Origin: a virus
DNA length: 25,668 nucleotides
IMG/VR virus record: IMGVR_UViG_3300017971_000713
Span: 1 to 25,668 of that record
Reading direction: 5' to 3' (one strand)
Shown: piece after piece, positions 1-20,939 of the stretch
How the letters are laid out: every line of letters begins with the position of its first letter
Numbering within the stretch: position 1 is the stretch's first letter
Program-made: the position numbers and the translations under genes
Notes under the pieces: generated by a model
Databases searched by the model: none
What the model was told of the DNA's origin: nothing
The model's input: the letters and a program-made list of their open reading frames with translations, nothing else

Positions 1-33
1 CGTCGTGGTCGTCGTGGTCGTCGTGGTCGTGGT
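1..33 (-). repeat. Threonine-codon microsatellite (ACG/ACC)
   Basis: Eleven consecutive Thr codons, mostly in an ACG-ACG-ACC pattern, read on the minus strand and run off the window edge. A related run of six Thr codons followed by Ala-Ala-Pro ends the tail gene at 6029-6739. The tract is low-complexity coding DNA and not a CRISPR, because there are no spacers. It may be a flexible or glycosylated linker, and may act as a recombination point between tail modules. The function is inferred. Confidence 0.85.
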
Positions 34-363
34 AGGAGCCAACACCACAAACCCGGCGATCGTCTGATTCTCACCGTCCGGATTTTCGACGTAAATGTCA
101 TAAGACCCAGGCGCAACCGCAGGCACGTCCACAGTGATCTTGTTTTGAGCGGCAACAACGATATTATCGCCGCTGGTCCCGCCTGCGCCGCCCCAGCGAA
201 CGATCATCGTGCCGAAAAATCCAGAGCCGGTATTGTCGATGTCGATATTCACGCCGGCAAGAGCGGATCCGGGATTCGCGCTAAGGGCGCCAAAAAACAG
301 AACCCCTTGGTTCCCGCCGCCGCTTTCACTTGTGCCATCACTGGCGTCAATTCTAAATGGCAT
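1..363 (-). CDS. Partial protein with IPT/TIG-like beta domain and poly-Thr tract
   Basis: The gene starts at ATG 363 behind an AGAGG ribosome site and is open to the window edge (121 codons visible), so its C-terminus is missing. It has no signal peptide. Residues about 20-75 are Gly-, Asp- and Asn-rich and look beta-structured. Residues about 75-107 (VDVPAVAPGSYDIYVENPDG and onward) resemble the end of an IPT/TIG immunoglobulin-like domain. Then comes Ala-Pro followed by at least eleven Thr. It is the last gene seen downstream of the tail-tip module and follows the secreted beta-rich gene by 12 bp. It is probably a virion surface or fibre protein, with further domains after the Thr linker. 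Family assignment is tentative; the reading frame is solid. Confidence 0.75.
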   Translation of the reverse strand, partial: MPFRIDASDGTSESGGGNQGVLFFGALSANPGSALAGVNIDIDNTGSGFFGTMIVRWGGAGGTSGDNIVVAAQNKITVDVPAVAPGSYDIYVENPDGENQTIAGFVVLAPTTTTTTTTTTT

Positions 364-4266: not shown

Positions 4267-4950
4267 TCAACCCCTTTCGCGCACAAGTTTTATCACCAGC
4301 CCGCCACGTTCTTCCATTGCCACCCGCCACCCGGCCGCCGCAGCTTGCATCCGAGTCCACTCAGCGTATTCGTCCAGGTTTCGCGCCCCCCGCGATGCAA
4401 GCAGAATCGTCCCGCCGGAAACAAGCATCTCGCTACACCAATCTATAACAATGCGCCAGTCGCGCGCAAAAGCATCCGTAAAAATCCAGCGACCAAAGGC
4501 TCCAAGGCCGGCTCCGGTCTTGTCGAAATGCTCCTTAAAAATATGCTGCAGGCCGTTGCGGCAATTGATTGCATGAAATGGCCCGCGCAGCCCAGGACAC
4601 ATGCCGGCAATTATTGCCCATAAATCCACGTACCAAACCGCCAGCCGGCGCTGCTCATGTATCAATTCGACCAGTCGTAAATACGTCTGCCACCACAAGC
4701 GATAATGTTCCGCCCGTTGGCTGCGCGGTCTCTCAATTCCAACCGCATCGTTCCGCATCCGCTGCGCAACCTCCAGCATCTCACCGGCGCCGGTCCCAAT
4801 GTCCAGGATCCGCATGCCGCCGGCGTGCAACTCGGGCAAATATTGCGAGACATAGTGCTCAAATCGGCGCATCTGTTTTTGCCGATCGACCTTTTCTGCC
4901 AACGTCGGATCCGATAACAAAAGCATCCGTTCGGTGTCGCGCGATGTCAC
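4267..4950 (-). CDS. SAM-dependent methyltransferase (class I)
   Basis: This is a 227-aa protein. Motif I of Rossmann-fold methyltransferases is clear at about residues 48-58 (ILDIGTGAGEM), and an acidic strand-2 end (GIERP) follows at about 72. Late strands SGGTILLAS and a C-terminal GGLVIKLV complete the fold. The start is GTG 4950, which overlaps the stop of the glycosyltransferase gene as GTGA; an ATG eight codons later is possible. The tight coupling suggests it modifies the product of the preceding glycosyltransferase, for example by O-methylating a sugar on a virion protein, but the substrate is not shown by sequence. It does not look like a DNA methyltransferase: no N-P-P-Y or P-C motif is present. 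Confidence 0.85.
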   Translation of the reverse strand: MTSRDTERMLLLSDPTLAEKVDRQKQMRRFEHYVSQYLPELHAGGMRILDIGTGAGEMLEVAQRMRNDAVGIERPRSQRAEHYRLWWQTYLRLVELIHEQRRLAVWYVDLWAIIAGMCPGLRGPFHAINCRNGLQHIFKEHFDKTGAGLGAFGRWIFTDAFARDWRIVIDWCSEMLVSGGTILLASRGARNLDEYAEWTRMQAAAAGWRVAMEERGGLVIKLVRERG

Positions 4951-5792
4951 GACGCAACCCCCGCGGCAAAACGTGCAGCCAACTGGCGCAAAGCCAAATC
5001 GCGATCGGCGCTTGTTGTGCGCCGCGCCTCGGCAACCGCGTCACTGCCGAAGTGCTGCTCAATCGGCGCCGTGTCCAGCCCCAGCTCCTCAAATCCGAGA
5101 AGGTAGTTTCGGACCCGATCCAGAACCTGCATCGGATATGTCAGCGCGCGACCGCCCAGCTTCGCGCTGTTGAAAAAGTGAATCCACTGCAGGCGCGGCT
5201 CGCAGTAAACGTGCCGACCGTATTTTCTGTATTTTTCCTGCAAATATCCGGTTTCGCCGCCAAAGCCGCGGAACTCGCGATGGAAGCCAAGCCAGGAATC
5301 CCGCCGGCAGGCAAAAAAGCCGGCTCCCTGCGCCCATATCTCAACAGGAGCATCCGGCACCTGGTCAATCGACGGCCCCCATATCCCCCACATCCCAGCG
5401 CGCCACCGAGGAAGCCACTCGGCGCAATAGCTGCGCCAGTTCCCCCGGATAATCGGCCCCTGGTAAAGATTGTCGTCTGGGATATCCCAGGACAATGCGC
5501 CGCGCGCAAGCATGATATGGGAATCGATCACCAACACATTTTCGCCGGTCGCGACTTCAAAAATCCTATTTTTAGCCGGAGACACACCAACATGTTCGGC
5601 GTATTTTTCGTACCGCACGCCAAAGGCCGAGCCGTCCTTCTCAGCCCAAGCCTTTAGCGCCAGGTCGCCGTAATTGTCAACGACAACGATCTCCATGTCG
5701 ATATCGCCATGATACATCCGCAATGCCTGACAGGTAAACCAGACCTCGGTAAAATTGTTGTAACTCGGCATCCCAACTGTCCAACGCGGCAT
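4947..5792 (-). CDS. GT-A fold glycosyltransferase with DSH and GFGGE motifs
   Basis: This 281-aa protein starts at ATG 5792 behind a G-rich site (GGGGGGTGA). The N-terminal half is a GT2-like nucleotide-sugar domain: VGMPSYNN at 6-13, IVVVDNYGD at 35-43, and the metal-site strand VLVIDSH at 86-92. The C-terminal half has WAQGAGFFACRRDSW (153-167), GFGGE (176-180) and a later His in LQWIHFF (about 205). In mucin-type polypeptide GalNAc-transferases the metal ligands are a DxH motif plus a distal His, with a GGE loop near the acceptor site, so the resemblance is specific. It may glycosylate a protein. Its neighbours are a coupled methyltransferase and, upstream, a tail gene ending in poly-Thr. 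The donor sugar and acceptor are not known. Confidence 0.85.
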   Translation of the reverse strand: MPRWTVGMPSYNNFTEVWFTCQALRMYHGDIDMEIVVVDNYGDLALKAWAEKDGSAFGVRYEKYAEHVGVSPAKNRIFEVATGENVLVIDSHIMLARGALSWDIPDDNLYQGPIIRGNWRSYCAEWLPRWRAGMWGIWGPSIDQVPDAPVEIWAQGAGFFACRRDSWLGFHREFRGFGGETGYLQEKYRKYGRHVYCEPRLQWIHFFNSAKLGGRALTYPMQVLDRVRNYLLGFEELGLDTAPIEQHFGSDAVAEARRTTSADRDLALRQLAARFAAGVAS

Positions 5793-6739: not shown

Positions 6740-7461
6740 ACTACAAGCCTCCCGTCAAGCCGCGCACGCAGCGTCCCGTCGAATTGCAGAGTCTGGCGCA
6801 CGACAACAAAATCCTGATTCGTCGTGACGCCGTTTTTGTTGTAGGTCGGAACCGTAATTTCGTCGCCCAGCTCAAGCGCCGGATAACCACGCCAGTCCAG
6901 CGCGATATCCTTCCTCGGCATTTTGTATGCCGCCAGCAGACCGTCGGCAATCGTCGCGGCCATTGTCAGCGACTGAACAAGTGCATTTTTTTTGAGCTGA
7001 TATTTTCGCAAACCATTGGACACAATTGACCCGGTGTCTTCAGTGCTGTACACCTCTTCTCCGTCGACGTTTAACGCGTGCCCGGTAATCGCGATCTTAA
7101 AATATGCGGCATGCCCAAGCCCATTCTGAACAGTGATCTCTCCGCCCCAGGCGTAATAAGTCGCCGCCGTAATAGTCAGCGTCGGCCCCAAAAGAGTTCC
7201 GTCGGCGTCGGTTTCATACGCAACGGCGGAAGCCCCAGCATACCCACCCACCGCGGAAGGCAACACCGGCGGCGAATTATACAGACACGTTGTCGCAATG
7301 GTCGCGCCGTCGCCGATCGATATCGGTTCCCTGGTCCGATATACCTCAGCCGCAACAGCGGCGGGTGTGAGCGGCTGCGTCGTGACCTCGATCTGATTTG
7401 CCAGCTCCTCGGTTTTTGCTGGCTGATCCAGGTCAAAAAAAGATGCAATGGTATAAGGCAT
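6736..7461 (-). CDS. Tail-tip protein, probable C-terminal half of a split hub
   Basis: This 241-aa protein starts at ATG 7461, sharing one base with the preceding stop (TAATG) and preceded by GAGGT. The N-terminal segment (FFDLDQPAKTEELANQIEVT) reads like an internal segment of phage tail hub proteins rather than a natural N-terminus. The C-terminal part (YPALELGDEITVPTYN, then DFVVVRQTLQFDGTLRARLD) resembles the closing domain of such hub proteins, where a GD-E/R-ITV strand is common. The gene at 8960-10147 looks like the matching N-terminal half, and the beta-helix gene lies between them. The two halves could assemble after translation. The split interpretation is inference; a tail-tip role is likely. 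Confidence 0.7.
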   Translation of the reverse strand: MPYTIASFFDLDQPAKTEELANQIEVTTQPLTPAAVAAEVYRTREPISIGDGATIATTCLYNSPPVLPSAVGGYAGASAVAYETDADGTLLGPTLTITAATYYAWGGEITVQNGLGHAAYFKIAITGHALNVDGEEVYSTEDTGSIVSNGLRKYQLKKNALVQSLTMAATIADGLLAAYKMPRKDIALDWRGYPALELGDEITVPTYNKNGVTTNQDFVVVRQTLQFDGTLRARLDGRLVV

Positions 7462-8963
7462 TAGACCTCAACCTCGATCATCGGCCAACGTATCTCCCAC
7501 GGATCGGTCTTAAGATCGTCAATTGTGTAATGTCCAGCAAATCGCATTGTCGTCACGGTCTCGCCGCCGTCCGTCAAAGCAAGCTCAACCGGGCCGTCGG
7601 TGATCGCATTTTGAATTATACAAACCACCGGCGTGCCAACACCCCAAACCTCGCCGACCAGCGCGATATTTTCGGCATAATCACTCAGCGCAATTTCAGC
7701 CGCCCGAGCGATATCTGTTCGGTTGCCGTTCGGCGTCGCGACACTGCCAGGCAACGCAAGCGACAACATCGCCGGCGTAAACTCCACAATGCGCGCAGTA
7801 ATCAACGGCACACATCGCAAAACCTGGCGACCGCCGGCCACCGGGCCAGCGCCACCGTCCACACCCTGATCTAGATATGTTGTCTGGATCTCAAATTTGT
7901 TTCCGCCAGCAGTCGCGCCGATACAGACCTCGTCGGCGAGGCCGTAGTTTTTATACACTGCGCCGGCATCAATTATCATACCCTCGGCTGGAACCTTGAC
8001 TGTCACAGCAGGCTCATGGGCGCCAATGCTAACAAGCCCATTGGCATTGGGCCTGTCGTTACCCTCTATGCCGTGGTCGTTATCGGCAAGTATGCTGGTC
8101 GTGCCAGCCGTATATAGTTGACTTGTTTTGTCAATGTTGAGGAAATTCGCGTTGGCGGGGTCAACCGACAGAAAATCGGCGGCACTAATCGGCGTGAGAT
8201 ATCCAGTGTGCGCGCCGATTGTCCCGTCATCATCAGCGCAATTGGTAAACGCAGGCCGATAGCTCCCCATTTTATAAAAAGCGCGCTGCGACGGACTGGC
8301 CGCCATGGCTACGGTATTTTTTATCCGTACTTTTGAATTAGTCCAATTGCTTGCGACAATACAGTTGCCACAGTTGTAAAAGCTACAGTTCTGCACGTCC
8401 CAATAGCCGGCCAAACCGTTGTAGTCGGTAATATACCCACGAAACAGCCTGTTAAATTTACAATTAAGAATCAGCGCGGACGAAGCGGCGTTGACATATG
8501 TGTTAAGGCCCGTAGCTTTGCTCGACACATCTAATGTGCCGTCAAAATAACAATCTTCCACCAATATCGTCGCAGGGGCGTAGTCGGCCCGGAGGTGCAA
8601 CAAAATATCAGTATAGTTGTCCAAACACCGAAACCCCAAATCGCGTATGACCAAATTGCCCTTGACAATCATGTGCCGACGCGCCACGCCGGTCGGGAGT
8701 CCGATATAATTCATGGCCGCAGGATTTCCGTCGTGTCCGGCGATCCCGCAAATCGCAAGAGTATAACTACCCGCATAGATCTCTGGCGGGGTCAAAGACG
8801 CACCCGTTTCGGTCGTATGGGCATTTGCAGCACAAGTATTCTGCAGCGTAATGTCCTGCGTAAACGGGACAGGGGGCGTCACCGTATAAATGCCAGCCAA
8901 ATATGCCAGCGCAGAGCCAAGCGAAGTGTATGTTTCGCCGGGGCCAAAATTAATGGTTATCAC
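7461..8963 (-). CDS. Right-handed beta-helix protein fused to a tail-tube-like domain
   Basis: This is a 500-aa protein. I chose GTG 8963 (GTGA overlap with the preceding stop, GTGGGG upstream) rather than the longer in-frame extension, which lies within the previous gene. Residues 1-318 form a pectin-lyase-like parallel beta-helix: a repeated pattern of short strands such as LVIRDLGFRCLD, ILVEDCYFDG, LILNCKFNRL and VQNCSFYNCG, closing with GIEGNDRPNANGLVSIGAHE, a typical end of such domains. Residues 325-500 are a clear paralogue of the tail tube protein at 13967-14527: IDAGAVYKNYG, LALPGS, ALSDY, PVVCII and WEIRWP are shared, with about half of the aligned residues identical by eye. A carbohydrate-binding or -degrading role for the helix is plausible; no catalytic residues can be assigned. 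Confidence 0.88.
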   Translation of the reverse strand: MITINFGPGETYTSLGSALAYLAGIYTVTPPVPFTQDITLQNTCAANAHTTETGASLTPPEIYAGSYTLAICGIAGHDGNPAAMNYIGLPTGVARRHMIVKGNLVIRDLGFRCLDNYTDILLHLRADYAPATILVEDCYFDGTLDVSSKATGLNTYVNAASSALILNCKFNRLFRGYITDYNGLAGYWDVQNCSFYNCGNCIVASNWTNSKVRIKNTVAMAASPSQRAFYKMGSYRPAFTNCADDDGTIGAHTGYLTPISAADFLSVDPANANFLNIDKTSQLYTAGTTSILADNDHGIEGNDRPNANGLVSIGAHEPAVTVKVPAEGMIIDAGAVYKNYGLADEVCIGATAGGNKFEIQTTYLDQGVDGGAGPVAGGRQVLRCVPLITARIVEFTPAMLSLALPGSVATPNGNRTDIARAAEIALSDYAENIALVGEVWGVGTPVVCIIQNAITDGPVELALTDGGETVTTMRFAGHYTIDDLKTDPWEIRWPMIEVEV

Positions 8964-10147
8964 AGCGGCCCCACGATCGTCAGCACATCCTCGCGACTCA
9001 TATACACCTGGCCGCAGCAAGCGCCGGCAATGTCCCGCAGGCAATCAAACACACTTTTGCGTTCAAACCAAGCCCACTCAATTTCGTAGTCGTGCAGCGC
9101 AGCCGCAATCGACCACGACAGATCAGGCATAAGACCCTGGGCATATGTCAATACGTCCTCGGCCAAATCGTACAGGTCAATGTCGTGGTATACGTCGCTG
9201 GACGTATAAATCATTTTCCGCAAGCGATCCATCCGGTCGCGCGCGGCAGTCCCCGCGTGTGTGCCGCTCAGCGGCACGTCCCAATCACCAGACCAAAACG
9301 TGCCAAGCGCCGCGTATTCGATAGAGCCGTCAGGCAAAACAAAGCCAAGCTCGGCGACGATTTTGCGACCCGCTTTAATAACCGTGTAAAGAAGGCTGTC
9401 CGTGTTTCCTGGAAAAAATCTGTCATCAACATTCTGCAAACGCAAATCAAGTTCGTTCGCCGATATGTTGCCAACGGGAAGCGACCCGTCCGAAAGCTCC
9501 CGCTCCTCCTGCAGATTAAGACTCAAAATATCGTCGGTGTAAACCTCGACAACCTCAGTATACACCTCGACTATTTTTACAACCCGGCTCGCCGCCGACC
9601 ATTTCGATATCGCCAAGCGCATCTCGGTAACGCTGTTGTATGGCGTCGACAGATCCAGCACCCACTCGACCGCGGCGTTCCCCGTAACAGTTTCAGTGTG
9701 TAGCAACGTCACGCCGTTATACAGCGTGATCGTAAAATCAACCGGGTATTCAGCGTATTTATCGTCGCCGACAACACGCAGGCGATTCACCGGGCGCGCG
9801 TCCCATGTGACGGTTAGCGTCGGATACGGGGCGCCCCATACAGCAGACCCGTCGCACCGGTCCGCGCCCCACCACCCGACCTGATAATCATCATCCTCGC
9901 CGGCGTTCGGCATCGGGTGAAAATCGCCGGTCAATTTGCAGTCCCCTGACAAATGAAACCATTTATACGGCACGGATTCTACTGCGTCGGCAACCTGGTC
10001 GGTATAAGTCACCCGGTTTTCATCATTCGCGCTGGCCGCAATCGACTGGTCAATGTCCTGGTCGGTCCAGGTAACAGTAACCCTGGCGCGCGGGTCGCGT
10101 ATCGTGGCCGTCGCAGCCGCAGTGTAATCCGCCGAAACCGACAGCAT
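8960..10147 (-). CDS. Tail-tip hub protein, probable N-terminal half
   Basis: This 395-aa protein starts at ATG 10147, overlapping the preceding stop (TGATG) with GAGGT upstream; a TTG one codon earlier is less likely. Residues 1-200 are beta-rich (RVTVTWTDQDID, LTVTWDARPVNRLRVVGDD). Residues about 225-300 (ELDLRLQNVDDRFFPGNTDS, then IKAGRKIVAELGF) and the end (VFDCLRDIAGACCGQVYMSR, then EDVLTIVG) match the pattern of siphophage tail hub proteins, whose central domain runs on past the equivalent of VLTIVG. Here the frame stops four bases into the next gene. It follows a small tail protein and the tape measure, as tail-tip genes do. Confidence 0.75.
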   Translation of the reverse strand: MLSVSADYTAAATATIRDPRARVTVTWTDQDIDQSIAASANDENRVTYTDQVADAVESVPYKWFHLSGDCKLTGDFHPMPNAGEDDDYQVGWWGADRCDGSAVWGAPYPTLTVTWDARPVNRLRVVGDDKYAEYPVDFTITLYNGVTLLHTETVTGNAAVEWVLDLSTPYNSVTEMRLAISKWSAASRVVKIVEVYTEVVEVYTDDILSLNLQEERELSDGSLPVGNISANELDLRLQNVDDRFFPGNTDSLLYTVIKAGRKIVAELGFVLPDGSIEYAALGTFWSGDWDVPLSGTHAGTAARDRMDRLRKMIYTSSDVYHDIDLYDLAEDVLTYAQGLMPDLSWSIAAALHDYEIEWAWFERKSVFDCLRDIAGACCGQVYMSREDVLTIVGPL

Positions 10148-10551: not shown

Positions 10552-13190
10552 TAGTTGCCCCTCCGTTGATCCTCGCCGATCCTGATGTCCCGCAACCGTC
10601 GCTCAAGCATTTTCAGACCAAAATTGTCGGCAATCAGCGTGCCGATATGCAGATGCACCGCACGGCCGCCAGCAGGCCCGCCAGCAGTCGCAAACGCCAC
10701 CGCTGGCACAGTCTCAGCCCTGGCAGTTTCGCCGCCCTGGCGAGGCTCAGGAAGGCTTATTTCGCTAAGGCGCCGCGTCAGTGCCTCAGCCAACGCCTCG
10801 GCGCCTGTCCGCATCGGCAGCACCAGCTCATCATCACGGCCCTCGCCCACAAGCGCCGTCGTGCCGCCACGGCCGCCGCGGATCAGACCGCCCTCCGCCA
10901 ACGCCGGCAAAGGCTTCGAGGCAATCAGCGCGACCTGCGCCGCGCCAAGGACACCCATGAGGACCGCCATCACGATCCCAAGAGGAAAGCCGAGTGTAAG
11001 GGCTTTAGAAACAGCCTGCGCCGTGTTGATTATTGCCCCGAATATCGCCGCAGCCTTGTCCCGCTTTGCCTGTTCGCGGGCCAGTTTTCGCCGTTCCTTG
11101 TCTGCCTGTTCGTCAATTGCCTTTTTTTTCGCCGCCTTTTCCTCTTCACTCAGGACCGACGCGTCGATAGCCGCCTTCTCGCGCTCGACGCGCTGGTCAA
11201 TTTCGGCCAGATGGTTTTCGGTCGACATCCGGCCCAGCTCCGCGATCTGACCGATCACAGACTGCGCGGTCGAAAGCCAGTCGTCGAAGGATTCACGCCG
11301 TATTTGCCGCTCTAACTCGGCATAATACTGCAAGATTGCCAGCCGTTCGGCGCCAAGCTCATCCGCCTTCTGCAGTGCATCCTGTTTTTCCTGCTCTAAT
11401 ATCTGCAGCCGTGTGCCGGTCATGCCCAGCAACGCCAAAGTATATCCGCGTTGATACTCGGTTGCCGCATCGGCAACCGCCTTGGCCTTTTCGGCGGCTT
11501 TTTTTCGCTCCTCTTCAGCCAACTCCTCGCGCCGCGCCGCATAAACCAGCCGAATCGCAAACGTGTCGGCCTCGATTGCCTCGGCCTGCGCAATCGCCTC
11601 GCGCTCCTCCATGTCCAATATCTGCAACCTGGTCCCGACCTGTTCGGCCAGTTTGCGGGTCCAATCGGCCTCAAACTCCTCGCGAGTCTGAGCCAACTTC
11701 ACAACCTCGGCGGCTTCTTTTTTCAACGCGGCGATCTGCTCTTCGGTGAGCTTTGTTTGCTCAACCGTTGCGGCAGCAACTGCCTGCGCGCCCTTGGCCG
11801 CGGTCGCCAGGCCCCGGCCCATCTCAAATACGCCGCCACGCACAGCATGCGAAATCTCTACCAGCCGCGCCAACTTTTCCTGCAGGTCGCCCTCAACTAC
11901 ATAGCCCAACTCGCGCGCCTGCTCGGCCAAAGCGTCAAAATCCGCGCCCAGGAGTGCCTGAGCGGCGGCCTCGTCGGACAGCGCCGCAGCATTGTCCCGG
12001 ATTTTTTTTGTGAGCGCATCCACCCCGGCAGTAAATTTCTTTACCCCGGCCTGTTCAACAGTCTGGACCGTAAAAGCGTCGTGTTCTGCTCGCAGCGTCT
12101 GATACGCCTTGACCGCCCCGTATATCGCCGCCGCAAATACCCCCACAGCCACCGCGGCGGCGATATACGGATTCGCCAGCATCGCAGCGTTAAGCTTCAG
12201 CGTCGCGCTTTTTACCAGCGCGATAGCAGGCCCAAGGATTTTGAACGCAGATATCAGCTTTCCGATAACCAAGACCAGCGGGCCGGCGGCCGCAAGCATC
12301 GCCCCGAACACAACTATATTTTTTCTCGCGCCCGAGCTCAACCCGCCGAACCACTCGACCAAACGCTGCACCGTCGGCAAAAGCCGATCCCGCAGCGTCG
12401 CCGTGACCTGCAGCGCAATCGGCAGGAACGCCTGGCCAAATTTCGCAGTGAGGTCTGCAACCTCGGCCTTAAATATCCGCGTCTGATTCGCAAGCCCATC
12501 CTGCGTCCGCGCAAAATCACCCTGCGCCGTCGTGGTCTGCGCCATAATCTCGGCCGAGGCGGCCAGGACTTTTTGCTGAGGAGTCAGCGCGTCTTTTGTG
12601 GTCTCAATAATTCCCAGCTTCATCGCCCTGGCCTTGAGCGTCGCATCGTTCAGCAGCACGCCATACCGCCGTATCGGCTCCGATTCCCCGCGCATAGCCG
12701 CGCCGATCGCGACGATTGCCTCCTCCGGAGTTGTATTGTTAAAAGATGCCAGATCGCTCGCCAGCTTCGTAAAATCTGTCGAAAACTTTACCAGATCCCC
12801 GCCGGCCATGCCCGCCGACTTTCCAAATATTGCGAAACTCGCCGCAGCATCCATCGCCTGCGTGCGCGACTGCCCCATACCCGTCGCTGTCGTTTTCGAC
12901 CAAGCCTCAATCTCGCCGGCGGATCCCTCAAATATCTCGCCGACCTTGGCAGTAGTTTCGGCCAGGTCGGAAGCCGCCTGCACCCCCTTGTATGCAGCCG
13001 CTCCCATCGCGACCAAAGGAACCGTAAAAGCGCGGCTCATACTCTTACCGACCGCAGCAACCCGCTTCCCCATACGGTCAATCGACCGCTCAAGCTTCCG
13101 CGCGTCTTTGTCGATCGTGGCGAGCTGCTTTTCTACAAGCCCGACGCCCTCGATCCCGAGCTTCCCGACCAGCGCAAACAACTCACGCAT
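10551..13190 (-). CDS. Tape measure protein
   Basis: This 879-aa protein sets tail length and is later extruded or released at infection. The start is ATG 13190, overlapping the chaperone frame by 8 bp. Residues 20-60 are coiled coil. Residues about 55-260 resemble the TP901-type tape-measure core (SFNNTTPEEAIVAIGAAMRG). Hydrophobic segments lie at about 291-325 and 341-360. A long Ala/Glu/Lys coiled coil covers 370-715, another hydrophobic stretch lies near 730-755, and the end has LAEGGLIRGGRGGTTALVGE followed by ELVLPM, a common tape-measure tail. Within the coiled coil, two copies of a 38-residue unit start at GTRLQIL (519 and 592). By the usual ruler of about 1.5 angstrom per residue the tail would be roughly 130 nm. 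Confidence 0.95.
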   Translation of the reverse strand: MRELFALVGKLGIEGVGLVEKQLATIDKDARKLERSIDRMGKRVAAVGKSMSRAFTVPLVAMGAAAYKGVQAASDLAETTAKVGEIFEGSAGEIEAWSKTTATGMGQSRTQAMDAAASFAIFGKSAGMAGGDLVKFSTDFTKLASDLASFNNTTPEEAIVAIGAAMRGESEPIRRYGVLLNDATLKARAMKLGIIETTKDALTPQQKVLAASAEIMAQTTTAQGDFARTQDGLANQTRIFKAEVADLTAKFGQAFLPIALQVTATLRDRLLPTVQRLVEWFGGLSSGARKNIVVFGAMLAAAGPLVLVIGKLISAFKILGPAIALVKSATLKLNAAMLANPYIAAAVAVGVFAAAIYGAVKAYQTLRAEHDAFTVQTVEQAGVKKFTAGVDALTKKIRDNAAALSDEAAAQALLGADFDALAEQARELGYVVEGDLQEKLARLVEISHAVRGGVFEMGRGLATAAKGAQAVAAATVEQTKLTEEQIAALKKEAAEVVKLAQTREEFEADWTRKLAEQVGTRLQILDMEEREAIAQAEAIEADTFAIRLVYAARREELAEEERKKAAEKAKAVADAATEYQRGYTLALLGMTGTRLQILEQEKQDALQKADELGAERLAILQYYAELERQIRRESFDDWLSTAQSVIGQIAELGRMSTENHLAEIDQRVEREKAAIDASVLSEEEKAAKKKAIDEQADKERRKLAREQAKRDKAAAIFGAIINTAQAVSKALTLGFPLGIVMAVLMGVLGAAQVALIASKPLPALAEGGLIRGGRGGTTALVGEGRDDELVLPMRTGAEALAEALTRRLSEISLPEPRQGGETARAETVPAVAFATAGGPAGGRAVHLHIGTLIADNFGLKMLERRLRDIRIGEDQRRGN

Positions 13191-13575
13191 GCCGCACCCG
13201 CTTTCTGCGCCGCTGGGTCGCGCGGTCCAGCCGTGAAATCCGCGCCGCCGTACTCAATGCCCGACTCACCACTGCGGCTTTTTCCGTTGCGCTCATCGGT
13301 TTTTCTCGCTCATGCAGCCCCAGGCTGCGGAGATATTCGCCAAAGCTTTTTTTTTGTCCCGCCCCGAGCTGCCAGGCAGTAAAGGATGCCGCGACAAGCG
13401 ACTGCCTTTCGGACTCAACTCTCTGCTCAGCGACATACTCAGCGGCCTGCGCATACTCACCAACTCCCCACAAGCCAAGACTTGCCATCGACAGCCGATA
13501 GTGACCAGTTACGCGCCGGAGCCTGATCGCAGCGGCGTCACGGACCGCGGCATCGACCTGTATAGGCTCCAGCAC
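13183..13575 (-). CDS. Tail assembly chaperone, -1 frame extension (gpT-like)
   Basis: This frame encodes about 130 aa to a TGA 8 bp inside the tape measure gene. Its only upstream start is GTG 13575 without a convincing ribosome site. A stop lies just before the T7 run in this frame, so it is best explained as the C-terminal part of a -1 frameshift product of the gene at 13509-13910, as in lambda gpG/gpGT. The fusion would be 242 aa (110 + 132). The sequence has an aromatic middle (HYRLSMASLGLWGVGEYAQA) and a strongly basic end (RLDRATQRRRKRVRH). The chaperone coats the tape measure during tail assembly and is absent from the finished virion. Confidence 0.85.
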   Translation of the reverse strand: MLEPIQVDAAVRDAAAIRLRRVTGHYRLSMASLGLWGVGEYAQAAEYVAEQRVESERQSLVAASFTAWQLGAGQKKSFGEYLRSLGLHEREKPMSATEKAAVVSRALSTAARISRLDRATQRRRKRVRHA

Positions 13576-13910
13576 GTAGTAAAAAAATCCCGTGCATCCT
13601 CAGAATGTACCAGATTGTCGATTACCGCCGGAAGCGCGGCGGGCGGCATTGCCTCAAATGCCTCGCGGCTTAATCCACACAACGAAGCCAGCCAGTCGAT
13701 CGTCGGCTCAAATACCGCATCGTAGCAGGCCATTACAATGCGCAGACCTATCTGTGCGATGTCGACGTCTTCGCCTGTTCCGGCCCCCTTTTTTCCGCGA
13801 GTCGACGCAATCACCCGCACCAACTCTCCGGCATTGTCGCCGAGATGACGCAGCAATCGTGTGACCAGTATCACGTCCGCCATTGTTAGCCGCCGTATAG
13901 TGATGTCCAT
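13509..13910 (-). CDS. Tail assembly chaperone, short form (gpG-like)
   Basis: This 133-aa protein starts at ATG 13910 behind GCGGGGGATT; the TTG at 13922 is disfavoured. It lies between the tail tube and tape measure genes, the fixed place of the gpG-type chaperone. The protein is mostly helical (LTMADVILVTRLLRHLGDNA) with a C-terminal region SEDARDFFTTCWSLYR. The two Phe codons (TTT TTT) form the slippery site: normal decoding continues to RSGSGA and stops, while a -1 slip enters the overlapping frame. The short product should be the more abundant. Confidence 0.85.
   Translation of the reverse strand: MDITIRRLTMADVILVTRLLRHLGDNAGELVRVIASTRGKKGAGTGEDVDIAQIGLRIVMACYDAVFEPTIDWLASLCGLSREAFEAMPPAALPAVIDNLVHSEDARDFFTTCWSLYRSMPRSVTPLRSGSGA
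13516..13587 (-). promoter_or_regulatory. Programmed -1 frameshift site with downstream stem
   Basis: On the minus strand a T TTT TTT heptamer (13587-13581) allows both tRNA-Phe to re-pair one base back. After an 8-nt spacer (ACTACGTG), CTGGAGCCT (13572-13564) can pair with AGGCTCCGG (13524-13516), a 9-bp stem with one G-U pair. Its 39-nt loop contains a smaller GCGG/CCGC stem. A slippery site, a short spacer and a stem are the three classic parts of a -1 frameshift signal, and they lie exactly where the two chaperone frames overlap. All pairings are read directly; efficiency is unknown. Confidence 0.88.
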
Positions 13911-13928
13911 AATCCCCCGCAAGGTTAG

Positions 13929-13966: not shown

Positions 13967-14527
13967 TCAGTCCTCAGTCGTCACGTCGGGCCACCGGATT
14001 TCCCAGGGCTCGGCATCCAGCGCGTCCGGATCAAAGTGCGCCGTAAACGTCACCGCCGCTACCGCCTCTTCGTTGTCCGCCAGGGCGATCTCAAGATTGC
14101 CGTCTGCAATAACATTTTCGATAATGCAGACGACAGGATCGTTGCTTCCGGCAACCTCGCCGACAATCGCGATATTGGTGTTGTAGTCACTCAGCGCCAA
14201 CGTAAGAGCGCGAGTAATCACCGTATAGTCGCCGTCGACAGCGGAAGCCGAGCCCGGCAACGCCAGACCCAGGATCGTTTCGGTGAACTCTACAAAATTC
14301 GCGACGATTTTCGCGTTCACGCGAGTAATTCGCCGCGAGCCTTTGACCGGTCCCTTTGCCCCATCCACCGGCATTTCCCGATACTCGGTTTCGATCGTAA
14401 ACGTATTCCCGCCACGCGTCGCACCAAGCAGCAGCTCGCCGGTTTCGCCGTAGTTTTTGTATACCGCGCCAGCGTCGATCACCATGCGCCGGTAACTTTC
14501 TACGGTGACTCCGTGTTGTCTTGACAT
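13967..14527 (-). CDS. Major tail (tube) protein
   Basis: This 186-aa protein starts at ATG 14527 behind a full AGGAGGG site; the longer frame is only an upstream extension. MVIDAGAVYKNYG (15-27), LLGATRGGNTFTIETEYR (33-50) and VDGAKGPVKGSRR (54-66) match the well-known pattern of siphophage major tail proteins, where a GA-GP-KG loop follows strand 3. LALPGS (88-93) and a C-terminal WEIRWP complete it. It polymerises as the tail tube, so strong expression is expected and fits the strong ribosome site. The gene at 7461-8963 carries a second copy of this domain. A hairpin follows the stop. Confidence 0.9.
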   Translation of the reverse strand: MSRQHGVTVESYRRMVIDAGAVYKNYGETGELLLGATRGGNTFTIETEYREMPVDGAKGPVKGSRRITRVNAKIVANFVEFTETILGLALPGSASAVDGDYTVITRALTLALSDYNTNIAIVGEVAGSNDPVVCIIENVIADGNLEIALADNEEAVAAVTFTAHFDPDALDAEPWEIRWPDVTTED

Positions 14528-14541
14528 TCTACACCCTCCTG

Positions 14542-14964
14542 TTAAAGATTTTCGCTCCACGCACGGCGCCCTGCGCGCGCCGTAAATACGATATTGTAAT
14601 GCCAGCCCCGCGGATCTGATTCAGGGACCGGACCGCCGGACTCGCGAAAAAATCTGATTTTATGATAGCGCGCATGTCCGGTCAGCACCTGATAATCAAG
14701 CAAGTTGTCGATCGCCTGGGCGGCTGCGCGGCCGGTTGTGCGCTTTTCGCCGTATGCCCAAATGTCAATATACACCGTAAATCTGTCCGCGACCAAATGG
14801 CCGCCTTGTTGCTTGTCAATCCGATATGTAATATAGGTTGCCTCAAAAGACAGGTCTTCCGGCGCCTGTTCGGAAAACACTGCAGGCCCGCTGCCGTATG
14901 TTGACAAACAAGCGGCCAAAGTAGAATCGCCGATCAGCGCGGACTGCAAGGCTGATTCAAACAT
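14542..14964 (-). CDS. Tail terminator or completion protein (DUF3168-like)
   Basis: This 140-aa protein starts at ATG 14964, overlapping the gp10-like stop by 8 bp; the extended frame upstream belongs to the neighbour. FESALQSALIGDSTLAACLS at the N-terminus, EATYITYRI in the middle and a late strand YHKIRFF fit the short alpha/beta fold of tail completion proteins (DUF3168 type). These cap the tail tube at the neck and lie between the gp10-like gene and the tube gene, as here. Confidence 0.75.
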   Translation of the reverse strand: MFESALQSALIGDSTLAACLSTYGSGPAVFSEQAPEDLSFEATYITYRIDKQQGGHLVADRFTVYIDIWAYGEKRTTGRAAAQAIDNLLDYQVLTGHARYHKIRFFRESGGPVPESDPRGWHYNIVFTARAGRRAWSENL

Positions 14965-15373: not shown

Positions 15374-15711
15374 GCCCGCACCTCTTTACAAGTACAGACC
15401 TGCACGACGTCGCGCTCCTGGATATTTTCAACCGTCAACACCTCAAAAACGCGAGTGCCGTAGACGATCTGATCGGTTTCGCCAATCGTGGCCGCTCCAC
15501 GCAAAGATACCAAGTGCGTCGCCTCGACGTTGATCGACCGATATTCCCAAACCTGAGTCGCCCGTATCGGCGATATGCTGGCCCAATATGTCCCAGCCGT
15601 GCTATAGGCGCGCGTAAAGCCACCCTCGCCGTCGGCCGTGCGCCCGCAGGTTTTTACCGTAACGCGATGCCGCAACTCAGTCGCCAGCGTTTTGCGACCG
15701 CTACGCTCCAC
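15370..15711 (-). CDS. Head-tail adaptor (gp16-like stopper)
   Basis: This 113-aa protein has GTG 15711, with GGAG nine bases upstream, as the best start; the long upstream frame overlaps the previous gene. Family features are TELRHRVTVKT at about 11-21, an aromatic-polar loop GTYWASISPIRATQVWE, and an end TRVFEVLTVENIQERDVVQV. This matches the short beta-barrel head-tail joining proteins (SPP1 gp16 type) that close the portal channel. Normally it directly follows the connector gene, but here a 215-aa unknown gene intervenes. Confidence 0.85.
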   Translation of the reverse strand: MERSGRKTLATELRHRVTVKTCGRTADGEGGFTRAYSTAGTYWASISPIRATQVWEYRSINVEATHLVSLRGAATIGETDQIVYGTRVFEVLTVENIQERDVVQVCTCKEVRA

Positions 15712-16348
15712 AGCGATACTCCATTCGCAAAACCTGATTGTCTCGATATTCAGGCTTGACTTCAAGCATTGTTTCGGAACGATACACCGCCGCCATAATT
15801 TCGCCGTCGGTCCAGTCGATCCCAAACCACGATGTCGCGCTTGATACTTGGCATGGCCGAGAAACATGCGCGCGCCACCAACCAGATGTATCAGGATTGC
15901 CAATTGGCACACCGTTGACAAACTGATATGCCGTCGGAGCCCAGCATATATATTTGTCAACAATGCGATACCCGAACACCGGCCGCATTACCGACTCTGA
16001 AATAATCCGATCTTCGTAAAAATCGTACCGCGTCACACCTTCGCCGCCGACGCAGGCAAAACCCTCGCGCTGGAGCTGCGGAGAAACCAGGCCGGCAGTC
16101 GAAACAACCCGCACGGAGTCGGGGCGCTCCTGGACACTAATGTTGTGTAAGGCTCCGAATTCCTGTTCATAATGCGTTCGCCCGTCGCCATCTGAGCGCC
16201 AATATTCGCACCCCTCACGTATCAAGCCGGTGTCAACTCCGCGCCAAACCAATCGGCGAAGCGTGCCACCAAAACGATAATCGACCGTCGCCACATAGTT
16301 GCGCGTACCAACCGATACGCTATTTCGACGTTTCTTTACGGCCAGCAT
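15701..16348 (-). CDS. Unknown 215-aa protein between connector and adaptor
   Basis: I do not recognise the family. The start is ATG 16348, overlapping the connector stop by 13 bp. The sequence is beta-rich with many aromatic residues (YVATVDYRFGG, YDFYEDRIISESVMRPVFGY, TSGWWRAHVS, SWFGIDWTDG). It has four Cys and neither signal peptide nor transmembrane segment. A jelly-roll or carbohydrate-binding-like sandwich is possible. The place between gp6-like and gp16-like genes is usually empty, so this may be a recent insertion or an extra neck or collar protein. It ends inside the adaptor gene start. Confidence 0.8.
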   Translation of the reverse strand: MLAVKKRRNSVSVGTRNYVATVDYRFGGTLRRLVWRGVDTGLIREGCEYWRSDGDGRTHYEQEFGALHNISVQERPDSVRVVSTAGLVSPQLQREGFACVGGEGVTRYDFYEDRIISESVMRPVFGYRIVDKYICWAPTAYQFVNGVPIGNPDTSGWWRAHVSRPCQVSSATSWFGIDWTDGEIMAAVYRSETMLEVKPEYRDNQVLRMEYRCGA

Positions 16349-16974
16349 ATTCGCTCAGGATTCAGAAGGTTGTAAAACTGTTCCGGCGCCTCGCCAGCCT
16401 CGGCTGTCCGGTTTTCGTACCGCCAGGCACAGTACAGCATAATCGCATCCCGCACCGCCGCCGGGACCGTCGCGCTGGTCGCGCCATACCCGGCCACATA
16501 CCGCACCCGCACAGCATCTATCGGTCTCAGTGTCGCGGTCGGCCAAGTCGTTTCATAAGCCAACGACACGCGGCCAGGCTCGGCATAAAGATCAATCCAA
16601 AAATCATCCGTCCCAACCGACGGATCCGGCTCCGGCGTCGTGCTTGTCGTTTCGTCATTTAGGTGAGTATAGTATAGGATCGTTTCGTCGTTGTCAACGT
16701 CGAAATACGATATCTGCAGCACCTGGCGCAGCGGACACCGCGGAAGCCAAAACATAGACGCCGGGAACGCGTCAAAGCCACACTCCCAGGTCTGTGTAAT
16801 ATACGCCCGCCGCTGGAAGTCTTCTGCCAAGCGGCGCGCCGTTGCGATCCACACGTTCAACACCGCATCTTCGGCGCTGGAGTCGATTCTGGTATGCAAC
16901 CGTACCTCGGCAGCCGTCACCGGCTCAACTGTCGGGGCCGTCACAAGACGCAAGTATTTTCCTATGTGCTCCAT
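16336..16974 (-). CDS. Head-tail connector protein (gp6-like)
   Basis: This 212-aa protein starts at ATG 16974, behind GCGGGGTG; the longer frame overlaps the glycosyltransferase gene. LRLVTAPTVEPVTAAEVRLH at the N-terminus, then helices with EDAVLNVWIATARRLAEDFQ and RRAYITQTW, are the pattern of gp6-like connectors that bind below the portal ring. The C-terminal half has RVRYVAGYGATSATVPAAVR, also usual for the family. An acidic and Thr-rich insert (ETTSTTPEPDPS) lies between the helical and beta parts. Confidence 0.88.
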   Translation of the reverse strand: MEHIGKYLRLVTAPTVEPVTAAEVRLHTRIDSSAEDAVLNVWIATARRLAEDFQRRAYITQTWECGFDAFPASMFWLPRCPLRQVLQISYFDVDNDETILYYTHLNDETTSTTPEPDPSVGTDDFWIDLYAEPGRVSLAYETTWPTATLRPIDAVRVRYVAGYGATSATVPAAVRDAIMLYCAWRYENRTAEAGEAPEQFYNLLNPERICWP

Positions 16975-17678
16975 TTTACACCCCGCAACAGCCAGAAGAT
17001 TTCCCAAAACCGCCGCGAGTCGCCGTATTCGTGCTGCACGACCGCCAAGCGGTCCGGCTTCCAAGAAAACAGGTTCGCCGCGGTGCGCACCTCGGCGATA
17101 ACCGCGCCGCGCTCGCGAGCCGTTGCCGCCGTTGCCGCCAATGCCGGCATTTCGCGGGGAATTGCCGACGCGATCCAGTTTGCCTGCCACAGCCGAAAAA
17201 AATCACGCGCCGCATCCGTTTTGCGAAACCCAACAAACGCACCGTAATAAATCCGAATTGGCACGCCAACGCCAAGAGCCTGCCAAGCCCGCAAGTAATA
17301 TCCCGGCACCCGAGTATTTTCGTCCCAATCCCCATATACCCGCAGCAGCAAATCCGCCGAGTCAAGCAAATCAAACGCGCGCTCTATCCCTGACCGTTGC
17401 ACTGTCGCGTCGCAATCCAGATAAAGCGTGCTCTCATATGGCGAATAGCTCGGCAACGCTGTTTTTATAAACCGGTTGCGCCCGTCAGGCTCCGAAATAT
17501 AAACAAACTCAATGCCCTTTGCCCATTGCCAATCGCGCGAGCGATTGTTTGTGTCTATATTTGTCAACACCGTGATCGGCAAGTCGGTATGCTCGCGCGT
17601 ATAAGACACTGTTCGCGAAGCAATCCGATCGAATCGCTCCCCGAAAACGACAAAGACAATTCCGCGCTCAGCGACCAC
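16962..17678 (-). CDS. GT-A fold glycosyltransferase (neck-side cassette)
   Basis: I chose GTG 17678 (238 aa), with GGGG nine bases upstream and a 11-bp overlap with the FkbM gene; a longer frame runs further into that gene. Strand GIVFVVFGE opens a nucleotide-sugar binding domain. NRFIKTALPSYSPYESTLYL leads into the DxD metal motif D-C-D at about 88-90, as in retaining GT8-like enzymes. Later IRIYYGAFVGFRKTDAARDF and WKPDRLAVVQHEYGD form the acceptor side. It is paired with the methyltransferase upstream, and both are inserted between a small head gene and the connector. The acceptor could be a virion protein or a host glycan. Confidence 0.82.
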   Translation of the reverse strand: MVAERGIVFVVFGERFDRIASRTVSYTREHTDLPITVLTNIDTNNRSRDWQWAKGIEFVYISEPDGRNRFIKTALPSYSPYESTLYLDCDATVQRSGIERAFDLLDSADLLLRVYGDWDENTRVPGYYLRAWQALGVGVPIRIYYGAFVGFRKTDAARDFFRLWQANWIASAIPREMPALAATAATARERGAVIAEVRTAANLFSWKPDRLAVVQHEYGDSRRFWEIFWLLRGVKWST

Positions 17679-18228
17679 TGCGCAATACCCCGTATCCAGG
17701 ATGCACGACAAGCGTATCAATTGCCTCCAGCCGCGATACTAATGCCCTATGCCGTTCAGGTGCGATGCCGCACTTGTTCCAGTGCCATTGCACATGCAAG
17801 ACATCAATCAAACGTATCGCCTGCGTGTCGCAAAGGTGTTCCAGGACATCGTACTCTGCGCCCTCGATGTTCATTTTTACGACAACGTGATCAACTGCGG
17901 CAAATTGTCCCAGCCACCGCGCAAAGTCGATTGTCTGCACAACTACCGGATTCTCAACGTCAAGGTTTCCGGTGCGCTTGTTTTTGCATACCGAAGACCC
18001 CTGCACTTTTTCCGGGCGAACCCGGCTGATGTAAAACGGCAATTCGCCGTCGGCAACCCAGGCCGCTGCGCGAACAACCGTGACGCCCTCGCCGTAGTCG
18101 ACGTCGGCAAGATGCGGATTGCACTCCCAGGCATAGATCGCCGTCTGACCCTCCACAAATGCCCGCGAGCGCCGGAAGGACCCGATTGTCGCCCCGCGAT
18201 AGGCGCCCAAGTCAATAAAAACAGTCAC
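17668..18228 (-). CDS. FkbM-family SAM methyltransferase
   Basis: This 186-aa protein starts at GTG 18228 (GTGA overlap, AAGGGGGT upstream). FIDLGAYRGATI at 4-15 is the SAM-binding loop, WECNP at 34-38 the strand-2 end, and QTIDFARWLGQ followed by VVKMNIEGAEYDVLEHL at about 117-132 is the FkbM signature, in which a D/N-IEGAE motif is typical. FkbM proteins O-methylate sugars and other hydroxyls. The pairing with a glycosyltransferase in the head-tail region suggests decoration of a glycan on the virion or the cell surface, which sequence alone cannot decide. Confidence 0.9.
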   Translation of the reverse strand: MTVFIDLGAYRGATIGSFRRSRAFVEGQTAIYAWECNPHLADVDYGEGVTVVRAAAWVADGELPFYISRVRPEKVQGSSVCKNKRTGNLDVENPVVVQTIDFARWLGQFAAVDHVVVKMNIEGAEYDVLEHLCDTQAIRLIDVLHVQWHWNKCGIAPERHRALVSRLEAIDTLVVHPGYGVLRSGR

Positions 18229-18443
18229 GCGACCCCCTTCCGCGGGCGGCCCCGCCGACGCACCTCGCCGGGAGAGGAAATTGCCCGCTCAGCCGCGACA
18301 GGCGGCAAAATCACACCGTACGCCTGCAGCCTCATCAATCGCAGGCCCTCAGCGTCGATTATGTCGCCCGCCTCGCGCATCGCCGGGACGGCAGCGCCGA
18401 AAAGACGCCCGTCCACAAATCGCCGCGTAACTGTACACCTCAT
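18225..18443 (-). CDS. Small protein with AT-hook-like basic tail
   Basis: This 72-aa protein starts at ATG 18443 behind GCGGGGC. It has a compact N-terminal part (RRFVDGRLFGAAVPAM) and ends in RRRGRPRKGVA, which contains an R-G-R-P core like an AT-hook minor-groove binder. It lies between the decoration-type genes and the FkbM gene. A role at the DNA-filled portal or in capsid assembly is possible, but I know no exact family. Confidence 0.6.
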   Translation of the reverse strand: MRCTVTRRFVDGRLFGAAVPAMREAGDIIDAEGLRLMRLQAYGVILPPVAAERAISSPGEVRRRGRPRKGVA

Positions 18444-19599: not shown

Positions 19600-20919
19600 T
19601 TACGCCCGCGCTGCCAGTGTCACAAACGGCGAAAGCGTGTTTGTGCTGTTCGCCGGCGTCAGCGTGCTCGACCACATCGGCTGGCCGTCGACGCGCGTCA
19701 CAAACCGGAAAACAGTTTCGTCATACACAAACCGAACATGGATCGACTCTGCGCGCTCAACGCCGCCCTTGTCAATTGTCATATACTGCGACAGGTCCAG
19801 CAGCATGATGTCGCCCAGGTCGCCAAGCGTGTCCGCCTGTTCGATCGGCTCAACCGGCCGCCCCATAAGCGTACCGTAGGGCGCGCCGGCCGCCCCGTTC
19901 GCGGGCAGATACACCGGCACACCGCCAACGCCGACCACCAGCGCCATTGTGAAGAGCTGAGGCTCGATGTCCTGATTGATATACCAGGTTGCATTCCGCC
20001 GCGAGCGGGCAATCATCCGAGACCACATCTTCACGATGTTTTCATAAACGATCGTGTCAGCGGTCTGCCCAGCCTCTTTGGCAACAGTCACCAGCGACGG
20101 CGAATTGAGGATCCCCAGCGGTTGCCCGGCGCCATTGCCGCGGATGATCGCATCGTCGATCAGCCAAGCAAACTCCTCCGGGAAGGCCTCGGAAATTACC
20201 GCGCCAAGCGCCGCGGCATCGTCGAGCAGCTCATCGGTTGCATAGCACAAAGCCGCCAGCTTTTTTAGCTTCAGCTCCATTTTGCGGAACTTCGGCTTGC
20301 TCGCGGTTTTTTCGTCCGCCTCGGCCAGCCAGTAGCCGCGCACGCCGCCCCACCTGGACCCGGTTGCCCGGCTTGTTTCGTCGATCCCGTTGATCGTGAG
20401 CCCGTTCGCGGTCGCACCAACGGGAATGTTCCGACAGCGGCGCGCCAGCGTCGAGGCGTCCATCGCCATACGCAGCAGCTCAGTCGCGTGTGCGGTCTGC
20501 ACCAGGAAACCACCATCGGCCGGCACACCCTCGGAAAGCCCGGTCGCCGCGCGCATCTCATCCGTAACCCGAGCACGCACACTGGCACCGGCGGGCGCAC
20601 ACATCGACGCGACGACCTGCAAAAACTGCCCAAAGCGCAGCATGCGCTCGCGTGCAGTTTCCCGATCAACCGGGCGCCCATTTCCAACCAACGAAGGCGT
20701 CACGGGCGGCGGCGTGCCGTGCATCTCAAGCTGCTGCAGCCGCTCCTCATTTTCAATCTCGGCCTGCAGTTGATCGACCTCGCCGTTCAGCGTTTGCCAC
20801 TCGGCACCCTCGGCCTCGGTCATGCGCCGATCGTCGCGTACCCCTGCGGCGTCTGTGATTTCGCGCATGCGCTTGATTTTCGCAGCGCGATCCTTTTTCA
20901 TCTGCTCCACATTTCTCAT
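19600..20919 (-). CDS. Major capsid protein (HK97 fold)
   Basis: This 439-aa protein starts at ATG 20919, seven bases after AAGGAG; the GTG two codons earlier is too close to it. Residues about 1-70 form a charged coiled-coil delta domain (MKKDRAAKIKRMREITDAAG, NGEVDQLQAEIENEERLQQL) that acts as internal scaffold and is normally cut off by the protease. The mature part has GVPADGGFLVQ at about 131, KLKKLAALCYATDELLDDAA, AIIRGNGAGQPLGILNSPS and a late YLPANGAAGAPYGTLMGRPV, all HK97-family landmarks (E-loop and P-domain). It forms the icosahedral shell. Confidence 0.95.
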   Translation of the reverse strand: MRNVEQMKKDRAAKIKRMREITDAAGVRDDRRMTEAEGAEWQTLNGEVDQLQAEIENEERLQQLEMHGTPPPVTPSLVGNGRPVDRETARERMLRFGQFLQVVASMCAPAGASVRARVTDEMRAATGLSEGVPADGGFLVQTAHATELLRMAMDASTLARRCRNIPVGATANGLTINGIDETSRATGSRWGGVRGYWLAEADEKTASKPKFRKMELKLKKLAALCYATDELLDDAAALGAVISEAFPEEFAWLIDDAIIRGNGAGQPLGILNSPSLVTVAKEAGQTADTIVYENIVKMWSRMIARSRRNATWYINQDIEPQLFTMALVVGVGGVPVYLPANGAAGAPYGTLMGRPVEPIEQADTLGDLGDIMLLDLSQYMTIDKGGVERAESIHVRFVYDETVFRFVTRVDGQPMWSSTLTPANSTNTLSPFVTLAARA

Positions 20920-20939
20920 CCCCACGCTCCTTGATAGGG

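Follow-up and report, generated by a model that had tools for sequence, protein, structure and literature searches.

A putative virion glycosylation cassette at the head-connector junction of a metagenomic phage and its relatives

Results

Glycosyltransferase and methyltransferase genes among the virion genes

The window, i.e., the whole stretch of DNA analysed here, corresponds to the complete IMG/VR record IMGVR_UViG_3300017971_000713, a linear metagenomic fragment of 25,668 bases in which all identified virion genes lie on the minus strand. On the head side, genes for the small and large terminase, the portal, an S78-type protease and the HK97 major capsid protein are followed by a decoration-like ORF, a 153-aa ORF, a 72-aa basic ORF, an FkbM-family methyltransferase gene, a glycosyltransferase gene and the head-tail adaptor gene. 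After the adaptor, a 215-aa ORF precedes the head closure, neck, terminator, major tail protein, tape measure and tail-tip genes, and a further glycosyltransferase and methyltransferase pair is located beyond the tail genes. Neither a sugar-nucleotide synthesis gene in the window nor a sign of lysogeny either way in the 25.7-kb record was found. The features relevant to this study are the following:

19600..20925, minus strand: major capsid protein, HK97-type (PF05065, E 1.5e-47), anchor for the comparison
18225..18443, minus strand: small basic 72-aa ORF that bounds the neck slot on the left (relatives L103 and L104 have a homologue in this position)
17668..18228, minus strand: FkbM-family methyltransferase, 186 aa (PF05050 over cut-off; homologues in phage cassettes)
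16962..17678, minus strand: glycosyltransferase GTd, 238 aa, GT-A fold, DCD motif (AlphaFold and Foldseek/VIA, homologue alignment)
16336..16974, minus strand: head-tail adaptor (Ad1, gp6-like), which bounds the slot on the right (PF05135, phrog_442)
15701..16348, minus strand: g215, cassette-linked 215-aa protein (position in L105, L103, L104 and L108; AlphaFold)
4947..5792, minus strand: tail-side GT2, polypeptide-GalNAc-transferase-like, 281 aa (PF00535 over cut-off; GalNAc-T matches)
4267..4950, minus strand: tail-side class I methyltransferase, Methyltransf_23 type (PF13489 over cut-off)
1..363, minus strand: truncated ORF, candidate glycan acceptor (translation ends ...VVLAPTTTTTTTTTTT at the contig edge)

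The methyltransferase of the neck pair scored 25.1 bits against PF05050 (E 2e-5), above the curated Pfam cut-off of 22.7 bits, and carried the SAM-binding and FkbM motifs, with residues D6, G8, G12, E122, G123 and E125, as well as the K118-NIEGAE block, being invariant across ten homologues. Its identity to the homologues in phage cassettes ranged from 38 to 56%. A PDB sequence search with the FkbM alignment returned only noise. We assign this protein to the FkbM family; it may O-methylate a sugar.

For the glycosyltransferase GTd, the homologue alignment and the overlap geometry favoured GTG 17678 as the start codon (238 aa) over TTG 17720 of the ORF at 16962-17720 (minus strand). No Pfam match was found for GTd, and a PDB profile search gave no glycosyltransferase match. 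An AlphaFold model (pLDDT 92), for which nine homologues were used, adopted a GT-A fold, with glycogenin, LgtC, GT8, GT6, GT24 and UGGT as structural matches in Foldseek/VIA (Z about 16), and the fold is accompanied by a DxD motif, whose D88 and D90 (DCD) were invariant in the nine homologues. Homologues of both GTd and the neck FkbM, at 41-56% identity, occupied the same slot in other phages, and this recurrence indicates that the neck pair is real beyond chance. These relatives were reached only via a search with the tail-side GT2, followed by two-sequence alignments; single-sequence searches with GTd and FkbM retrieved nothing from phage records or IMG/VR, and no GTd match was obtained in six bacterial genomes with related prophages.

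The initial annotation had placed an FkbM methyltransferase and a DCD-motif glycosyltransferase between the head and connector genes, and the PF05050 score, the GT-A model and the invariant aspartates bear this out. Its neck gene set was incomplete with regard to a third cassette gene, ORF 15701-16348, and the start of the glycosyltransferase was moved to 17678. The product of this third gene, g215, was modelled (pLDDT 88) as a beta-supersandwich fold like that of galactose mutarotases and of beta-galactosidase domain 5 (VIA Z about 17). L105 carries a g215 homologue within its cassette; in L103, L104 and L108, the homologue follows the adaptor. Because of its location within the L105 cassette, we assigned g215 to the cassette.

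The FkbM gene starts with a GTG and shares 4 nt (GTGA) with the small ORF before it, the GTG start of GTd overlaps the FkbM stop by 11 nt, and the adaptor ATG at 16974 overlaps the glycosyltransferase stop by 13 nt. These overlaps, which span the neck pair and both of its flanks, fit a translational coupling to the flanking virion genes, which makes the coupling put forward in the initial annotation plausible. The counts for a separate promoter or terminator inside the cassette were near chance, and the idea was dropped. Since the GC content of the cassette genes (0.56-0.58) falls within the range of their neighbours (0.51-0.67), composition gives no sign of recent import.

A GalNAc-transferase-like enzyme in the tail-side pair

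The second pair, also listed in the initial annotation, was confirmed at 4267-5792, where the products of both genes exceeded the cut-offs of PF00535 and PF13489 and the methyltransferase gene overlaps the GT2 ORF by 4 nt. No homologues of the genes flanking this pair were found among the compared loci. When a profile of 18 GT2 homologues was searched against the PDB, GalNAc-T10 (E 3e-7) and GalNAc-T7 (E 1e-5) were the top matches, followed by chondroitin synthase (6e-5). The DxH motif, the distal His and the GGE motif of GT27 enzymes are conserved in GT2 as D90-S-H92, H205 and GFGGE. D90, H92 and H205 were invariant in the 18 homologues, and the DSH motif and the distal His align to GalNAc-T10; we take these three residues to correspond to those that bind Mn in GalNAc-transferases. 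A C-terminal ricin-type lectin domain is absent, the 281-aa ORF stopping after the catalytic region, and for this reason GT2 was kept out of GT27 and is described as an enzyme that would work like a member of that family. Judging by its best matches, GT2 resembles the animal polypeptide GalNAc-transferases, the enzymes that start mucin sugars, and a transfer of GalNAc to Thr/Ser is predicted. No membrane helices were predicted in the cassette glycosyltransferases or methyltransferases (maximum KD19 of 1.1 in the window glycosyltransferases), which fits cytoplasmic protein glycosylation.

Several other features were observed in the tail region of the window. A 527-aa tail protein (7461-9044, minus strand) carries a C-terminal major-tail-protein domain (phrog_885, E 3e-30), and a separate major tail protein is encoded at 13967-14560. 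Two tail-region genes in tandem (376-2094 and 2091-3746, minus strand) encode paralogues of 572 and 551 aa that had no homologue in any other compared locus, and two overlapping ORFs before the tape measure gene (13183-13575 and 13509-13922, minus strand) look like a frameshifted tail-assembly chaperone pair.

Occupancy of the neck slot in relatives

About 100 relatives were gathered by means of the capsid protein, and their gene order was compared between the capsid and connector genes. The usual order consisted of decoration, fibre-like or 153-aa ORFs, a small ORF and the adaptor. In L010, L024 and L075, which contain ORFs similar in size and position to the 72-aa ORF of the window, the small ORF is followed directly by the adaptor, with no cassette. 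By adaptor, L075 and L024 are, after L103, the closest relatives among the cassette-free phages; their contigs (23.7 and 39 kb, respectively) contained no GT2, FkbM or Methyltransf_23 gene anywhere. Given these empty slots in close relatives, the neck pair represents a clean insertion between the small ORF and the adaptor, the kind of insertion point that the initial annotation had suggested looking for by a comparison of gene order. L103 and L104 share exactly the order of the window, namely FkbM, glycosyltransferase, adaptor and 215-aa protein; the contig of L103, which is the closest relative, stops within the tape-measure gene, leaving any tail-side pair out of view. When the occurrence of slot-borne glycan enzymes was mapped onto an adaptor-based tree of 63 phages, at least eight changes were required.

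Other glycan enzymes were found at the same or a neighbouring junction, such as GT2 and FkbM in L066 and FkbM with a methyltransferase in L099, while L098 contains a GT25 between the adaptor and the closure gene, and the L129-type lineage carries clusters of FkbM, GT11 and GT4 between the capsid and adaptor genes. Based on these gene orders, the head-connector junction emerges as a place where unrelated phages appear to insert glycan enzymes repeatedly.

A different capsid type was observed in L127, L129, L130, L131, L132, L135, L147 and L152, all with FkbM genes between the capsid and adaptor genes; in those checked (L129, L135 and L152), they stand with GT11- and GT4-type enzymes. These FkbM genes probably mark a second, independent virion glycosylation island. 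In L078 (14180-17186) and L080, a major-tail-like gene is followed by two methyltransferase genes, a GT2-like gene and a chaperone-like gene, and this tail-side glycan cassette is unrelated to that of the window. The capsid-connector region also carries other cargo, i.e., a zinc-finger/HNH-like ORF after the capsid gene in L004/L005, and a ParB-like ORF in L003 (10033-11217) that may carry a DNA methyltransferase part. An Anp1-like match in L013 was below the cut-off and was not counted.

One cassette in relatives, two places in the window

Homologues of the neck FkbM, the neck GTd and the tail-side GT2 were found together in the neck slot of five phage types (L102, L105, L106, L108 and L109). 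L101 and L102 were recovered through the tail-side GT2 search, with L101 being cut off inside FkbM. In L102, the slot comprises GT2 (57% identical to the tail GT2 of the window), FkbM (46%), a 334-aa protein, a class I methyltransferase and a neck-type glycosyltransferase (41%), followed by the adaptor. This order (GT2-FkbM-x334-MT31-GTd) is shared by L106, further genes are added in L105 and L108, and the arrangement in L109 is x334-GT2-FkbM-GTd; L107 displays the first part of the cassette up to the contig end. The 334-aa protein x334 had no database match above noise, though it is GT-B-like by eye, and hence it was not named. The L108 cassette also contains a UDP-GlcNAc 2-epimerase (PF02350, E 2e-105), which suggests an N-acetylhexosamine-type donor in that phage.

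Gene fusions were also found. In L164, GT2 precedes the adaptor, and a 471-aa protein encoded after it fuses the neck GTd to the tail-side methyltransferase type (MT23), its C-terminal domain being homologous to the tail-side methyltransferase of the window (E 3e-31). In a different setting, L111 carries a fusion of the neck GTd to FkbM. A correspondence between the tail-side methyltransferase and MT31 of L102 was tested and rejected, the true partner being the L164 fusion domain. Furthermore, in the GT2 tree the tail copy of the window branched inside the neck-cassette clade (support 88 and 94). In view of the shared neck cassettes, the fusions and this tree placement, the two pairs of the window are best read as a split cassette, so that the window probably holds one pathway distributed over two places.

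Thr-rich ORFs as candidate acceptors

Thr-rich, mucin-like ORFs were located just upstream of GT2 (each at 0-1.1 kb) in 11 of 60 nonredundant GT2 loci, which are related, so that this count amounts to about six branches, compared to none in 99 capsid relatives without GT2 (1,173 kb; Fisher p 1.2e-5). In L105-L108 and at further GT2 loci, the ORF immediately preceding GT2 contains tracts such as TTTTGTTTTGTTTT. Of the tracts checked for codon usage, most (those of L105-L107 and L166) used all four Thr codons, which argues against a plain DNA triplet repeat and points to selection on the protein. No strong Thr tract was in view in L102, L109 and L164, where GT2 is present.

In the window, the Thr tract of the edge ORF is visible for 11 residues, is encoded by ACC and ACG codons only and is located about 4 kb from GT2; by itself, it is a weak candidate acceptor. 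The contig breaks inside this (ACCACG)n poly-Thr tract of ORF 1-363, after an Ig-like-looking segment, and the repeat is probably where assembly failed. In other phages, long mucin-like ORFs rich in Thr or Ser/Thr were also seen near FkbM or GT2 genes, namely in L133 (11725-15474), L124 (9530-11284) and L227 (2039-5272).

Discussion

We consider it reasonably probable that the neck and tail pairs constitute one phage-encoded cytoplasmic O-glycosylation pathway for the phage's own virion proteins, with O-methyl capping. Working from computed features, namely the enzyme families, the slot, the empty slots in relatives, the gene linkage and fusions and the absence of predicted membrane helices, we infer a joint pathway with a virion target, a Thr-rich acceptor, an order of steps, and a sugar together with its methylation. 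Such a pathway would act late in infection: the tail-side GT2 would probably attach the first sugar to Thr/Ser residues in a stalk or linker of the virion, the GT-A enzyme of the neck would extend it, and O-methylation by the two methyltransferases would cap the sugar. The genes form one island in relatives, between the head-decoration genes and the head-tail adaptor, an island that would be split in the window phage. More tentatively, and as a possibility that we would not yet favour, phages may encode mucin-type O-glycosylation in general, in which a GalNAc-transferase-like initiator acts on poly-Thr/Pro virion stalks encoded next to it, other glycosyltransferases extend, methyltransferases cap, and the island moves as head-connector cargo that can be split between the head and tail modules.

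The initial annotation had interpreted the two pairs as separate cassettes that produce two different glycans, one for the head and one for the tail. Decoration of virion proteins remains probable, and the location of the pairs in different structural modules, each with its own methyltransferase type, together with the L078 methyltransferase/glycosyltransferase group that stands alone after a tail-protein gene, would be in line with two glycans. However, homologues of the neck GTd, FkbM and the tail GT2 are neighbours in a single cassette in relatives, GTd is fused to the tail-type methyltransferase in L164 and to FkbM in L111, and the window GT2 falls within the neck-cassette clade, which makes two independent cassettes unlikely. 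If the pairs are the halves of one pathway, their location does not tell which protein each of them decorates. Modification of a host surface polymer (LPS, capsule or wall), resulting in a superinfection block or serotype conversion, seems rather unlikely. In favour of this explanation, gene clusters for cell-surface glycans often contain FkbM enzymes and GT2 glycosyltransferases; yet the window genes have no separate promoter or terminator beyond chance, no ORFs for the membrane glycosyltransferase and flippase set of gtr-type serotype conversion were found beside the window glycosyltransferases, GT2 resembles protein-modifying GalNAc-transferases and Thr-rich ORFs adjoin GT2. The presence of the glycosyltransferase genes among virion genes is what would be expected for virion glycosylation.

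The patchy presence of the genes, with its eight or more changes on the adaptor tree, and the capacity of the slot for other cargo, e.g., the HNH-type ORFs of L004/L005, could also reflect neutral cargo that landed in a permissive gap of the late operon. We regard this as improbable, as the catalytic residues are invariant across 40-56% identity, and these enzymes co-occur, form fusions and turn up again in phage lineages that are not related. Glycosylation and methylation of phage DNA bases, to which a sub-threshold match of the L078 glycosyltransferase to a TET-associated glycosyltransferase might point, is highly improbable: no base-hydroxylating or hydroxymethylating gene was seen in the window, and its glycosyltransferases match protein- and saccharide-acting enzymes.

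Compared with known systems, the preferred pathway of virion O-glycosylation shares some features and differs in others. Mycobacteriophages use glycosyltransferases of their own to glycosylate capsid and tail-tube proteins (PMC12363180), and virion glycosylation is reported for Che8, Corndog and Myrna (Freeman et al. 2023, cited in PMC12363180). As in those phages, phage-encoded glycosyltransferases would act on capsid and tail proteins here, where this is deduced from the genes. Unlike them, the window, from a phage with different hosts, contains a multi-enzyme neck-slot island with FkbM and other methyltransferases and a GalNAc-transferase-like initiator, and tblastn of the window glycosyltransferases against 50,697 phage records revealed no homology to mycobacteriophage glycosyltransferases. 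The flagellin glycosylation islands of Enterobacteriaceae, which are patchily distributed, place glycosyltransferases, FkbM and other methyltransferases and glycosyltransferase-methyltransferase fusions in a structural operon beside the acceptor gene (PMC4875605). The window cassette resembles them in the kinds of enzymes, the fusions, the insertion in a structural operon and the patchy distribution, but those islands serve bacterial flagella with different enzymes and flagellin as acceptor, whereas the acceptor of the window would be a virion protein.

At the enzyme level, GT2 is like the GT27 polypeptide GalNAc-transferases in its best PDB profile match, its DSH and distal-His metal residues and its GGE motif, but it is phage-encoded, is filed by Pfam in PF00535 and lacks the C-terminal lectin domain, and both its donor and acceptor are predictions. 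GTd shares the fold (Z about 16) and the DxD motif with retaining GT-A enzymes of the GT8/glycogenin/LgtC type, at only about 9-14% identity and with no Pfam match, and it forms a separate phage family. The capsid glycosyltransferase of Chlorella virus PBCV-1 (PDB 2p72; Z 15.4) is likewise a virus-encoded GT-A enzyme implicated in capsid glycosylation; unlike the window phage, PBCV-1 is a eukaryotic algal virus, and the likeness to the GTd model is structural. Virion glycosylation as such is already known, while the cassette and its mucin-like logic look new.

To our knowledge, glycosylated virions have been demonstrated in only a few phages, with the targets of the enzymes usually being unknown. 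A conserved cassette with a probable acceptor encoded alongside makes the question of enzyme and target directly testable, and the head-connector junction provides a useful search key for new glycosylation systems. Should the initiator indeed be like a GalNAc-transferase, phages would possess mucin-like O-glycosylation, which would bear on host attachment and on the recognition of phages by antibodies and might offer a bacterial route to mucin-type glycoproteins.
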